DNA of 64,000 nt, taken from Spelaeicoccus albus. Lineage in GTDB: Bacteria > Actinomycetota > Actinomycetes > Actinomycetales > Brevibacteriaceae. Below are positions 8,277 to 16,177 of this stretch, piece after piece. The stretch is taken from contig NZ_JACBZP010000001.1 of assembly GCF_013409065.1 (NCBI RefSeq), forward strand, positions 930,001 through 994,000, in the 5' to 3' direction. Under the pieces are notes generated by a model. It saw only the letters and a list, made by a program, of their open reading frames with translations, was not told where the DNA came from and ran no database searches. Position numbers and translations under genes: made by a program. The stretch's first letter is position 1. The number at the start of each line of letters is the position of its first letter.

Positions 8277-9416
8277 TCAGCCGCGATAGACGTCGTCGAG
8301 CTTCAATGCGGTAAGTATACGATTCAAATCATCGACACTAGCGAAGTCCACGCTCAATTTTCCCTTTTTGGCGCCCAAATTGATTTGCACGCGCGTGTCC
8401 AAGCGATCTCCCAGCCTGCCGGCCAGATCGTCCAGTTCCGGGTTGCGTCCGCCGGCACGCGCTCGATTCCGCTTGGGCTTATCGGCACCGCCGGACGCGA
8501 GCAGTACTTCCTCTTCGGTCGCGCGTACCGATAGCCCCTCCGCAACGATCCGCTGGGCAAGAACTTCGATCGCCGCGCCGTCATCCAAGCCCAACAGCGC
8601 ACGGGCATGACCCGGGGAGAGGACGCCCGCAGCGACCCGACGTTGGACAAGAGGCGGCAAGCGCAAAAGTCTCAGTGTATTACTGATCTGCGGACGCGAT
8701 CGGCCGATCTTCGCCGACAGTTCTTCTTGTGTGCATGCGAAATCGTCCATCAATTGTCGATAGGCCGCTGCTTCTTCGAGCGGGTTCAGTTCGCTTCTGT
8801 GCAGATTCTCCAACAACGCGTCACGAAGCATGTCCGATTGCGCCGTTTCCCGAATAATCGACGGGATTCTGTCGAGCCCGGCATCTTTCGCGGCGCGGAG
8901 GCGCCGCTCACCCATGATGAGCTCGTACACCCCATCCGAATCGGGGCTCGTCCGCACCACCACCGGTTGCAGCACTCCGACCTCGCCAATCGAGTGGACG
9001 AGTTCGGCGAGCTCGTCCTCGTCGAACACCGTGCGCGGCTGTTTTGGATTGGGGACAATCCGATCCACCGGTAGTTCGGCAAATTGAGCGCCGGGAACGG
9101 CCATCAGTTCCGATGTTTCACGTGAAACGCTTTCGGCTGTGGTTTCACGTGAAACATTATCGTCCCGAAGAGCATCGTCTCCGGCGGAGACCGCAGATGC
9201 TGAGCTCGATGTTTCACGTGAAACATTTGACCCGGAGTGTCCGCCGGCAGTGGTCGTCGTGTGAGCACCGTCGTCCGAACGAACCGACGTTTTTTCCTGC
9301 GGGACCGCGACTGTCGCGCCCGACGGAAAAAACACATCCACCGGGCGGTCCTTACCCCCGTTGGATGGGATCAATGCTCCGAGGCCCTTACCAAGACCCT
9401 TACGTTTTTCAGCCAT
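8277..9416 (-). CDS. parB: Chromosome partitioning protein ParB
   Basis: CTP-dependent DNA clamp that loads at parS and organises the origin for segregation; 379 residues. The N-terminal [12 protein letters not shown] peptide is the ParA-contact motif, [12 protein letters not shown] is the CTP-binding Arg-rich box, and [20 protein letters not shown] is the helix-turn-helix. Its linker contains the peptide VSRET three times because three parS sites lie inside the gene. ATG 9416 gives the canonical [11 protein letters not shown] start; GTG 9425 is an alternative. The start overlaps the end of parA, so the two are translationally coupled. Confidence 0.97.
9114..9129. promoter_or_regulatory. parS site 1 (inside parB)
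   Basis: Sequence TGTTTCACGTGAAACG, differing from the consensus parS palindrome only in the final base. It is a ParB nucleation site and encodes part of a VSRET peptide on the minus strand. Confidence 0.93.
9141..9156. promoter_or_regulatory. parS site 2 (inside parB)
   Basis: Sequence GGTTTCACGTGAAACA; the central 14-bp GTTTCACGTGAAAC palindrome is perfect. It begins 12 bp after the end of site 1. Confidence 0.93.
9210..9225. promoter_or_regulatory. parS site 3 (inside parB)
   Basis: Perfect 16-bp parS TGTTTCACGTGAAACA within the parB linker coding region. Confidence 0.96.
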
Positions 9417-10542
9417 TCGTTCCACGCTCCGCTATCTCTTCAGCCGCTTCGAGGTACGACAACGCGCCGCTCGACGATCGGTCGTACGTAATGACAGTTT
9501 GTGAATAACTGGGGGCCTCGGAAATCCGCACCGACCTTGGCACGGCAGCGCGAAGCACTTCGTTGGGAAAGTGTTCGCGGACCTCGGCAGCTACTTGAGC
9601 GGACAGATTCGTTCGACCGTCGTACATCGTCAGCAAAATCGTACTAATCGACAGCTGCGGGTTGAGGTGCTTTTGAATCAACGAGATGTTGTTGAGAAGC
9701 TGGCTCAGTCCTTCAAGCGCATAATATTCGCATTGAATCGGAATCAATACCTCTTTAGCCGCCACAAATGCATTGACCGTCAGCAGTCCCAGACTCGGCG
9801 GGCAGTCGATCAGCACATAGTCGACCCGGGAGCCTGCTTCTTCACGAGCACTGAGGTACGTATCGAGAGCTCGCGACAATCGTTGTTCGCGAGCAACAAG
9901 GGACACCAGCTCGATCTCGGCCCCGGCCAAATGGATAGTCGCGGGCGCACAGACCAAATTGTCGATCTCGGGAGACTGCTGCACTACATCGGCAAGCTCA
10001 AAATCACTCACCAGGACGTCATAAATGCTGTCGACCTCCGGGTTATGCGGTATTCCGAGGGCCGTGGAAGCGTTTCCTTGCGGGTCCGTGTCGATCACCA
10101 AAACAGAAAGCCCTGCTCCGGCCATCGCCGCTGCAATATTCACCGTCGTGGTGGTCTTGCCGACTCCGCCCTTTTGGTTGGCCACAGTCAGGACGCGAGT
10201 ACTTTCCGGCTTCGGAAAATTCTTGCCGTCCATCCGGCGTAACCGATTGGAGTCCCGCATGATCTCGGCGGCCAATGGGGTTGATTCGTCTAGCTCCGGC
10301 AAGGATATGTCTCCGTCTTCTTCTGAGGCGATTTCACCGGCTGTCGCCGGCCATGTTTCACGTGAAACATCCGGCGGCTCCGATGACGCACTGTCGGGCA
10401 GGTTCTCCTCCAGCCGCGCCCAGCCAAGAGGAACCGGGCTGCTGGGGGGATCCGGGATCGGCCATCCCAAACTTGCTGACGCCACGCTTACGCTCTTATC
10501 TCTCGTAGAAAAGCCTGTCCGTGCAACACCGGAGGGCTTCAC
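9409..10542 (-). CDS. parA: Chromosome partitioning ATPase ParA
   Basis: Deviant-Walker P-loop ATPase that moves the ParB-parS complex; 377 residues. The Walker A motif KGGVGKTTT is near residue 122, followed by [12 protein letters not shown] and the DCPPSLG switch. The 110-residue N-terminal extension is long but genuine-looking: mycobacterial ParA also has an extended N-terminus carrying a VSRET peptide encoded by an internal parS. The GTG start at 10542 shares a GTGA with the rsmG stop. Confidence 0.95.
10354..10369. promoter_or_regulatory. parS site 4 (inside parA N-terminal extension)
   Basis: Perfect 16-bp TGTTTCACGTGAAACA, encoding VSRET in the disordered N-terminal part of ParA. It lies about 1.1 kb from sites 1-3. 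Confidence 0.96.
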
Positions 10543-11228
10543 CCGGAATGCCGTTTCTTACGGCCCGGCACCTTCCCGCCGTTTTGTCCGACGCGCACGT
10601 GTATGACTCTAGTCGGAGTCTCCAGCACGGAGCCACCCGCCGTCTCGATCGACCACGACGTGGCGCCAAATGATCGTAGGGGTTGTCCTGCTTTGGCAAG
10701 TTCGGCCTCTGCAGCGGCGCCCTTGATGGCCAACACGCTCCCATGGGGCTCGGCCAATGGGAGCGTCCACGGCACGAGGCCGGCCAACCGCGCGACCGCA
10801 CGGGCCGTGACCACCGCAAAACGCCGAGTGCCGGCGATTTCTTCGGATCGCGCTCGGACAACCTCCACGTTGTCGAGTTCGAGCCCTGCGATTACTTCAT
10901 GCAGCCAGTCCACGCGCCGGCCAAGAGGTTCCAATAGGGTCATTCGCAGATCCGGACGTCGGATCGCCATGACCAGACCCGGCAGGCCCGCGCCCGATCC
11001 GACATCGACAACTGTGGCAGCCTCGTCGATGAGGTCCGTCACGACCGCGCAGTTGAGAATGTGCCGGTCCCACAACCGGGAGACTTCGCGCGGCCCGATG
11101 AGGCCGCGTTCGACACCCGACGTGCGCAGGTACTGCGCATACCGCGCCACAGTGTCACGGGTGTCCGGAAATACGGCCGCGGCTACGTCGGGGACGGCAA
11201 ATTCGTTCACTGAGGCAGAATCGTCCAC
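10539..11228 (-). CDS. rsmG: 16S rRNA (guanine(527)-N7)-methyltransferase RsmG
   Basis: SAM-dependent Rossmann methyltransferase of 229 residues (formerly GidB); it methylates G527 in the 530 loop of 16S rRNA. The SAM-binding VDVGSGAGLPGLVMAI motif and the downstream LEPLGRRVDWL acidic-loop region are clear. The GTG start follows the jag stop with no gap (TAA-GTG) and its own stop overlaps parA, so jag, rsmG, parA and parB look like one translationally coupled string. Confidence 0.95.
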   Translation of the reverse strand: MDDSASVNEFAVPDVAAAVFPDTRDTVARYAQYLRTSGVERGLIGPREVSRLWDRHILNCAVVTDLIDEAATVVDVGSGAGLPGLVMAIRRPDLRMTLLEPLGRRVDWLHEVIAGLELDNVEVVRARSEEIAGTRRFAVVTARAVARLAGLVPWTLPLAEPHGSVLAIKGAAAEAELAKAGQPLRSFGATSWSIETAGGSVLETPTRVIHVRVGQNGGKVPGRKKRHSG

Positions 11229-14265: not shown

Positions 14266-15696
14266 ATGATGGCAGACGAAGAATCAGCCCTTGAAGAAGC
14301 GTGGGCAAATGTTCTGGCCACCTTGTTAGCCGATGATTCGATCACCCGCCAGCAAAAGGGATTCCTGGCCAATGCCAGGCCGCGGGCATTCATCGACGAC
14401 ATGGTCGTGCTCGTCGCGCCCAACGAACTGACCAAGAAGATGCTCGAAGAGCGCCTCCGCGAGAAGCTCCGCTCCACCTTTGCCGCGGAACTCGGCCGCG
14501 AGGTCAGTTTCGCCATCGCGGTCGATCCGCAACTGGCGGTGGCCACGCCGCCCGCACCCACCGAGGACGCGCCGGCCGACGTCCCGCCGGAACCCGCCAT
14601 CACCCGGACGCCGTTCACACAGCCTTCAGCGCCGCCGGACCCCGACGCGGCGGCCAGCAGCCGGCTGAACTCCAAATACAGTTTCGACAATTTCGTCATC
14701 GGCGCCTCCAACCGCTTTGCCAACGCCGCCGCCGTTGCCGTCTCGGAAGCACCGGCTCGCGCCTACAATCCGCTCTTCATCTACGGCGACTCGGGACTGG
14801 GGAAGACGCATTTACTGCACGCCATCGGTCATTACGCAATGACTTTGTTCCCCGGGACGAGAGTGCGATACGTCAGCAGTGAAGAATTTACCAACGACTT
14901 CATCAATTCCATCCGAGACAAGTCGACATCGTCGGCCTCGTCATTCCAACGCCGATATCGAGATGTCGACGTACTTCTGATCGACGACATCCAGTTCCTG
15001 CAAGGCAAAGAAGGAACCGTCGAAGAGTTCTTCCACACGTTCAACGCCCTGCACAACCAGGAAAAGCAGGTAGTCATCACCTCGGACGTGCCGCCGAAAC
15101 AACTCTCGGGCTTCGAAGATCGCTTACGCTCTCGATTCGAATGGGGCCTCATCACCGACGTCCAGCCGCCCGATCTGGAAACGCGCGTGGCGATCCTGCG
15201 TAAAAAGGCCGCTGCCGAGAACCTCGATGTCCCGGCCGACGTCCTGGAATACATCGCCAGCCGGATCTCATCGAACATTCGCGAGCTCGAAGGCGCGCTC
15301 ATCCGAGTGACGGCGTTCGCCAATTTGAGTCAGCAGCAAGTGAACCTGGCACTTGCCGAAATCGTGCTGAAAGACTTGATCAGCGACGAGAACACCCCCG
15401 AAATCACTGCTGCCTCGATCATGGGGCAAACCGCCGCGTACTTCCAGCTCACCCTCGAGGACCTCTGCGGCGCCTCCCGCTCGCGCACCTTGACGACGGC
15501 GCGCCAGATCGCCATGTATCTGTGCCGGGAGCTGACCGATATGTCATTGCCGAAGATCGGTCAGGAGTTCGGCGGCCGCGACCACACAACGGTGATGCAC
15601 GCCAACAAAAAGATCAGTGAACAAATGGCCGAACGGCGCGCCATCTTCACCCAGGTCACCGAATTGACCAACCGCATCAAGCAGCATCACCGGTAA
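14266..15696 (+). CDS. dnaA: Chromosomal replication initiator DnaA
   Basis: AAA+ initiator of 476 residues that binds DnaA boxes and opens oriC. Domain I is at about 1-90, followed by a Pro/Ala-rich linker. The AAA+ core has Walker [12 protein letters not shown] and Walker [10 protein letters not shown]. The C-terminal helix-turn-helix carries the DnaA signature [14 protein letters not shown]. There are two adjacent ATG codons (14266 and 14269); either may be used. Confidence 0.98.
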
Positions 15697-16177
15697 ATTT
15701 CACCAATGTTATTCACACCTGTGGATAAAACTGTGGATGCCCTCTGGACGGCGGCCGGGACCTTGCGGAAAACGTGGCCGGTTCCGGTGGACCGCTCCGG
15801 GCGCATTCCCCCGATTCCACAACCGTCCACCCCGCCCCTGTAATTCGTCCACAGCTGCGTGCACACCCGTCGGCGGTGGTTTTTGCCGCGCATAAAGGGC
15901 CGCCCGACCCGTTATCCACACCATCCACAGTTGCTACTACCACTACGGGATCAATTAATTAGTCTTTTCAACACGTGACGTACCGCCCAATCGAACTACA
16001 TGGATCACGCAAACGGTATCGATGAGGCAATTGCCGAGCGGGGTGATTGCAGGAGCCGGAATCCCGCCCCTGAGGTTTCCCCATCGCCCATCGAGCCGGT
16101 AGCCTACAAAGGCAAGTCGCGCGCCTGCGACGAGCCCGGAACCAACGAAACCGGACGAACGAAAGTTGAGGATTGCC
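15697..16177. other. oriC: oriC: dnaA-dnaN intergenic region with DnaA boxes
   Basis: Non-coding gap of 481 bp with the composition of an origin. Perfect or consensus-range DnaA boxes are TTATTCACA (15709-15717), TGTGGATAA (15720-15728, reverse) and TTATCCACA (15912-15920). Near-matches include TGTGGATGC (15732-15740), TCGTCCACA (15845-15853) and CCATCCACA (15921-15929). Boxes cluster at both ends of 15709-15929. A short AT-rich patch at 15951-15967 (TCAATTAATTAGTCTTT) immediately follows the last boxes and is a candidate unwinding element. The dnaN promoter should lie in the remainder, 15970-16160. Confidence 0.88.

Follow-up and report, generated by a model that had tools for sequence, protein, structure and literature searches.

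The main chromosomal parS sites of Spelaeicoccus albus are very probably four palindromes that lie inside its parA and parB genes, with selection acting on the DNA and the peptide VSRET, which each of them spells, carried along as a tolerated passenger. The sites were found in a window of 64,000 nucleotides (positions 930,001 to 994,000 of contig NZ_JACBZP010000001.1), and coordinates below refer to this window unless the contig is named. Once bound to a parS site, ParB loads CTP and becomes a sliding clamp, which is moved by ParA and which recruits SMC. By analogy, ParB would bind and load clamps at the four palindromes, which would serve as its landing sites and so act as the chromosome centromere of S. 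albus. The most likely reason for their unusual position is that long, disordered linkers in ParA and ParB can tolerate five extra residues, while the operon offers no intergenic DNA in which the sites could otherwise reside. Selection would then act on the DNA, and as the amino acid composition of the linkers favors VSRET, the same passenger peptide would appear in both proteins.

The four sites and their operon

The window was searched with the 16-bp palindrome TGTTTCACGTGAAACA, allowing up to three mismatches, and none of 100 shuffled windows contained four such matches. Two of the sites are perfect 16-mers, at 9210-9225 (ParB residues 68-72) and 10354-10369 (ParA residues 59-63, within the N-terminal extension). 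The other two, at 9114-9129 (TGTTTCACGTGAAACG; ParB residues 100-104) and 9141-9156 (GGTTTCACGTGAAACA; ParB residues 91-95), deviate at one end base only, and their 14-bp cores are exact. All four (no strand assigned) are in frame and read VSRET, three in parB and one in parA, so that the original prediction of four parS sites within the two genes was confirmed, and its division into two perfect 16-mers and two core matches was reproduced by the pattern search. Pairs of in-gene sites separated by 24-27 bp, as at 9114-9156, recur in three other loci (L141, L142 and L160).

Within the 4.03-Mb single-contig genome, exact 14-bp parS cores occur at these four places and nowhere else. When the 16-mer was searched across the whole genome at up to three mismatches, 8 matches were recovered and a reversed-pattern control gave 7; by number, then, the four weaker matches do not stand out from background. 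One of these (contig positions 836562-836577) deviates from the core at a single base and may represent a fifth parS site, weaker than the other four. The site codons are rare in the window genome and, given the peptide VSRE, the chance of finding GTT TCA CGT GAA is about 1e-4 per site, a post hoc figure that is based on the codon use of the 49 called window genes and assumes independence. Together with the shuffled windows and the absence of exact cores from the rest of the 4 Mb, this makes it extremely improbable that the palindromes are a product of chance or codon use and not ParB sites. They have the properties of the parS class, namely a 16-bp palindrome or close variant, clustering near a likely oriC, and a cognate ParB with a parS-type DNA-binding domain.

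The operon lies on the minus strand and comprises gidB/rsmG (10539-11228; NCBIfam TIGR00138), parA (9409-10542; start codon inferred) and parB (8277-9425). In these gene calls, parA shares 4 bp with gidB and 17 bp with parB, and parB is separated by 7 bp from the end of a convergent aminotransferase gene, leaving no intergenic room. The likely oriC is the dnaA-dnaN gap at 15697-16165 (no strand assigned), which carries DnaA-box words at 15720 and 15912 and is about 5-7 kb from the parS sites; dnaA (14266-15696, plus strand) and dnaN (from 16166, plus strand) were recognized by eye from the sequence and not by family search.

All three domains expected of ParB were identified by Pfam and NCBIfam, ParB_N at residues 114-209, HTH_ParB at 212-307 and ParB_C at 328-374. 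In a register counted by hand, R244 and G272 correspond to R173 and G201 of Caulobacter ParB (available text of PMC7383237), and the protein looks to be of the parS type. The Pfam ATPase domain of ParA begins at about residue 116. AlphaFold modeling from 25 and 23 sequences returned pLDDT values below 50 for the greater part of ParB 1-105 and for ParA 4-77, and of about 50 or less at all four VSRET copies, in agreement with the earlier claim that the peptides of both proteins fall in predicted disordered regions.

A possible TTG start for parA was noted by eye at 10302-10300 (minus strand), with GGAG 8 bases before it (window 10300-10314); were this start used, the parA site, being upstream of it, would fall outside the coding sequence. 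Both G000 and its relative G003 have LGW motifs upstream of the site, which speaks for translation of the extension. With a loose pattern, one or two LGWP-like motifs were found in 19 of 86 ParA extensions of at least 40 residues, including those of the window (10250-10542, minus strand), L020, L024, L034, L042, L050, L131, L138 and others, and this motif is a better short-linear-motif candidate than VSRET. ParA extensions can also matter for other reasons, since the N-terminus of Mycobacterium smegmatis ParA is involved in DivIVA binding (PMC9298525, available text).

Placement of parS in related par loci

The distribution of parS was examined across 160 par loci, consisting of the best 80 matches together with 40 of 59 and 40 of 149 genomes, the latter 80 being a hand-chosen, non-random sample. 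No identical parA cores were shared among them, and two loci (L048 and L157) were without an assigned parB. Gene boundaries were set by tblastn and open-frame extension, so that parA starts are often too far upstream; the codon-usage gene finder trims starts and undercalls genes.

Exact in-frame parS sites were present in parA or parB of 67 of the 160 loci, and in both genes of 15. Among the 132 loci with any exact site, there were five in which the in-gene sites made up all exact sites of the region examined, and the window genome has the most (4) of these five. Over the full set, exact sites in the parA extension numbered 63 for frame 0 and 20 for frame 2, those in the parA core 7 (all frame 0), and those in parB 46 (all frame 0), with 409 found elsewhere; the one-mismatch sites of parB include 3 of frame 1 and 1 of frame 2. 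Of the 20 frame-2 cases in parA, 17 have ATG or GTG immediately before FHVK, so such a site may overlap the true parA start.

When the in-frame parB sites (n=66, 20 with one mismatch) were mapped on the window ParB, 47 fell in the N-linker and 19 in the C-linker, and none of the 66 in ParB_N, HTH or ParB_C. Seven exact and two near sites were located within the ParA core or at its margin, and not in a linker. Six exact sites lie within the conserved ParA helix ELVSLVSRETRL, a position that reads VARE with ordinary codons in most of the 147 loci examined, and here the constraints on protein and DNA do genuinely overlap. VSRET sites in parA were also seen in L160-L162, of a family (f22) in the same class as the window genome.

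Many relatives house their sites 1-5 kb downstream of parB. Across 24 loci (21 of the window's family, taken from 21 of 37 genomes considered for it, and three of Brevibacterium), those with more downstream sites (counted with up to one mismatch) had fewer exact in-gene sites, with a Spearman coefficient of -0.83 (p ~4e-7, kinship ignored); for the Brevibacterium loci, 2.0-2.7 kb after parB was covered and the downstream counts are lower bounds. Loci with 3-4 in-gene sites had 0-2 downstream, and those with 7-12 downstream had 0-1 in-gene. This is read as two apparent ways of housing one centromere, and the inverse relation makes both centromere relocation and a possible self-regulation of ParB testable.

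Such self-regulation could arise if ParB clamps within the operon hindered transcription of parA and parB, allowing the centromere to measure and limit ParB dosage; the sites might then be retained in the operon for this purpose. The 250-bp bin richest in exact sites (80 in the 160 loci) immediately precedes the conserved ParA core, and the ATG or GTG preceding FHVK in the frame-2 parA cases raises the possibility of overlap with a start codon. In the available text, Casart et al. 2008 propose that transcription or translation of parA may be blocked by ParB at the parS within the gene (PMC2346475), and the title of PMC5521831 describes repression of promoters adjacent to parS3 and parS4 in P. 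aeruginosa. The downstream placement seen in many relatives speaks against such a role, and autoregulation is considered possible but rather unlikely, even though it can be compatible with the sites being the main centromere. Less probable again is a self-limiting centromere, in which the whole canonical set is written into parA and parB, ParB clamps loaded on their own genes cut parAB transcription and the family switches between in-gene and downstream-array modes. If true, this would tie the dose of ParB to the number of loaded origins.

A very different distribution of parS cores was seen in another family of the same phylum (f40), where 4 of 40 genomes (G197, G206, G223 and G231) hold 110-129 exact 14-bp cores each, with 0 for the reversed control. 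Among the listed places in G197 (L215-L234), cores span 0.10 to 2.29 of 3.38 Mb, with some pairs 34-35 bp apart, and 36 of the 38 sites examined were non-genic. A literature search combining Eggerthella, parS and ParB, the family name of f40 being a guess, returned nothing on abundant cores by title.

Selection on the DNA site or on the peptide

A like arrangement in mycobacterial ParA had originally been taken to suggest that DNA site and protein sequence were co-maintained, and this part of the original prediction was not supported by comparison with relatives. In the 160 loci, 126 of the 127 VSRET peptides of ParA and ParB are within one mismatch of parS (116 at exact sites, 10 with one mismatch, and 1 with three). 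After the sites were masked, VSRET was found in 0 of 106 ParA and 118 ParB linker sequences. Nor is the place of the peptide constant, as it shifts between the ParA extension, the ParA helix, and the N- and C-linkers of ParB. A literature text search for VSRET found no paper that was, by title, on Par proteins.

Near-parS sites show how freely the peptide changes, with 41 of 51 single-mismatch in-frame sites altering it (VPRET, VSRGT and VSRAT) and 10 being synonymous. The same base changes as in the synonymous class account for 18 of 160 single-mismatch sites outside genes (Fisher p = 0.15). When the two commonest palindromic classes were pooled, synonymous changes appeared in excess (10/32 in genes versus 18/139 outside, p = 0.017), but stratification by locus removed this excess entirely (8 observed versus 8.1 expected, z = -0.08), and the pooled value is taken to reflect confounding by loci that have a parS variant of their own. 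Mirror-image base changes are equal for a palindrome and very different for a protein. Those giving S to P and E to G were found 12 and 10 times in genes, and 56 and 57 times outside, and the spectrum of variants in genes resembles that outside genes.

The constraint on codons is well illustrated by a degenerate site, TGTTTCACGTGCAAC, which has one mismatch, lies in the ParB C-linker and reads VSRAT in 12 Brevibacterium-type species (L009, L011, L139, L140, L145, L146, L148 and L150-L154; the genus, g2, was inferred to be Brevibacterium by its likeness to L009 and L011). Its codons, AAT GTT TCA CGT GCA, are identical in 12/12 species, while the 27 surrounding codons examined all vary. With 5/5 site codons and 0/27 flanking codons invariant, this linker comparison upholds the view that codon choice is constrained at the level of DNA. 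The base change in TGTTTCACGTGCAAC is shared by 2 of 160 single-mismatch sites outside par genes, and it is possible that this is an asymmetric ParB site. Another Brevibacterium-type genome (G034, locus L115) is without any exact core and has nine single-mismatch sites downstream of parB. At the position of the degenerate site it reads VPRAT, the second change belonging to a class common to 6 of its own nine downstream sites.

The uniform reading frame also bears on this question. An in-gene parS can be read as VSRET or xFHVKx, the third frame containing a stop, and the product of linker amino acid compositions favors VSRET over FHVK by 54-fold in ParA and 36-fold in ParB. With a 36-fold preference, about one FHVK would be expected among the 46 parB sites, so that its absence is not surprising. 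Exact sites within other called genes of the 160 loci were likewise all VSRET (5/5), and of the one-mismatch sites there, 6 were in frame 0 and 1 in frame 1. A frame bias special to Par proteins was rejected, because a 36- to 54-fold preference follows from composition by itself and other genes also read VSRET in 5/5 cases.

In three further genomes (17/22, 14/18 and 38/114 sites used), 65 of the 69 exact sites lay outside genes, and the remaining four, placed in called genes, comprised 1 VSRET and 3 FHVK, a genic-frame control outside par genes that is small and mixed and for which gene calls are approximate. All three FHVK calls follow an ATG or GTG that might be a start codon, and one of them is in the same doubtful gene as the VSRET site. 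The FHVK reading outside par genes indicates that frame choice is not absolute, and some preference for the peptide could be concealed by the complete VSRET bias of parB. In a tblastn control with the 49 window genes, eight sites were recovered, including two in the parA region of L053, a number too small to use alone.

It is very unlikely, then, that VSRET is itself a functional linear motif, for example in contacts between ParA and ParB or with a partner, and maintained by dual selection. Its occurrence in both proteins, the complete frame bias in parB and the pooled synonymous excess count in favor of such a motif, but the peptide is absent without parS, is freely altered at near-parS sites and changes its place, the excess is gone on stratifying, and the bias is expected from composition. 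Neither sign of dual coding, a peptide that outlasts its DNA site or a preference for synonymous variants, was found, the pooled p-value notwithstanding. Peptide-level selection on VSRET was rejected, given how nearly the peptide is confined to parS DNA, the spectrum of its variants and the result of stratification, and no peptide-level constraint was detectable in relatives. Judged from these sequence comparisons, it is the DNA that constrains the peptide and not the reverse, and VSRET is a passenger. The par genes provide a clean case of a DNA-binding site running through coding sequence, in which comparative data can part the DNA code from the peptide it spells, and a warning against taking VSRET for a protein motif.

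Comparison with known partition systems

Sites within partition genes have been described previously, although the statements that follow are limited to the available text of each source. In M. bovis BCG, one of the two parS sites lies inside parA (Casart et al. 2008, PMC2346475), which agrees with the original prediction of a similar arrangement in mycobacteria. As in the window, the par genes of M. bovis BCG are downstream of gidB near oriC, but its second parS is upstream of gidB, whereas all four exact sites of the window are in parA and parB (PMC2346475). Bacillus subtilis carries parS-359 within parB (spo0J) (PMC4442127), but this is one of 10 parS sites (PMC7022226), while in the window the whole canonical set is within the operon.

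Centromere sites within or next to partition genes also occur in some repABC replicons, where parS occupies the 5' end of repB, although the palindrome is different and the system is one of plasmid or chromid partition (PMC9040568). Corynebacterium glutamicum shares the actinobacterial 16-bp parS in the oriC region, but nine of its ten sites are intergenic and one is in trpCF (PMC7083940). A single parS inside parA or parB is, therefore, already published, for M. bovis BCG and B. subtilis. Less usual are the confinement of the whole canonical set to two par genes and the finding that, within one family, in-gene sites and a downstream array are inversely related. The operon of S. albus is an extreme example of an already known type of arrangement.
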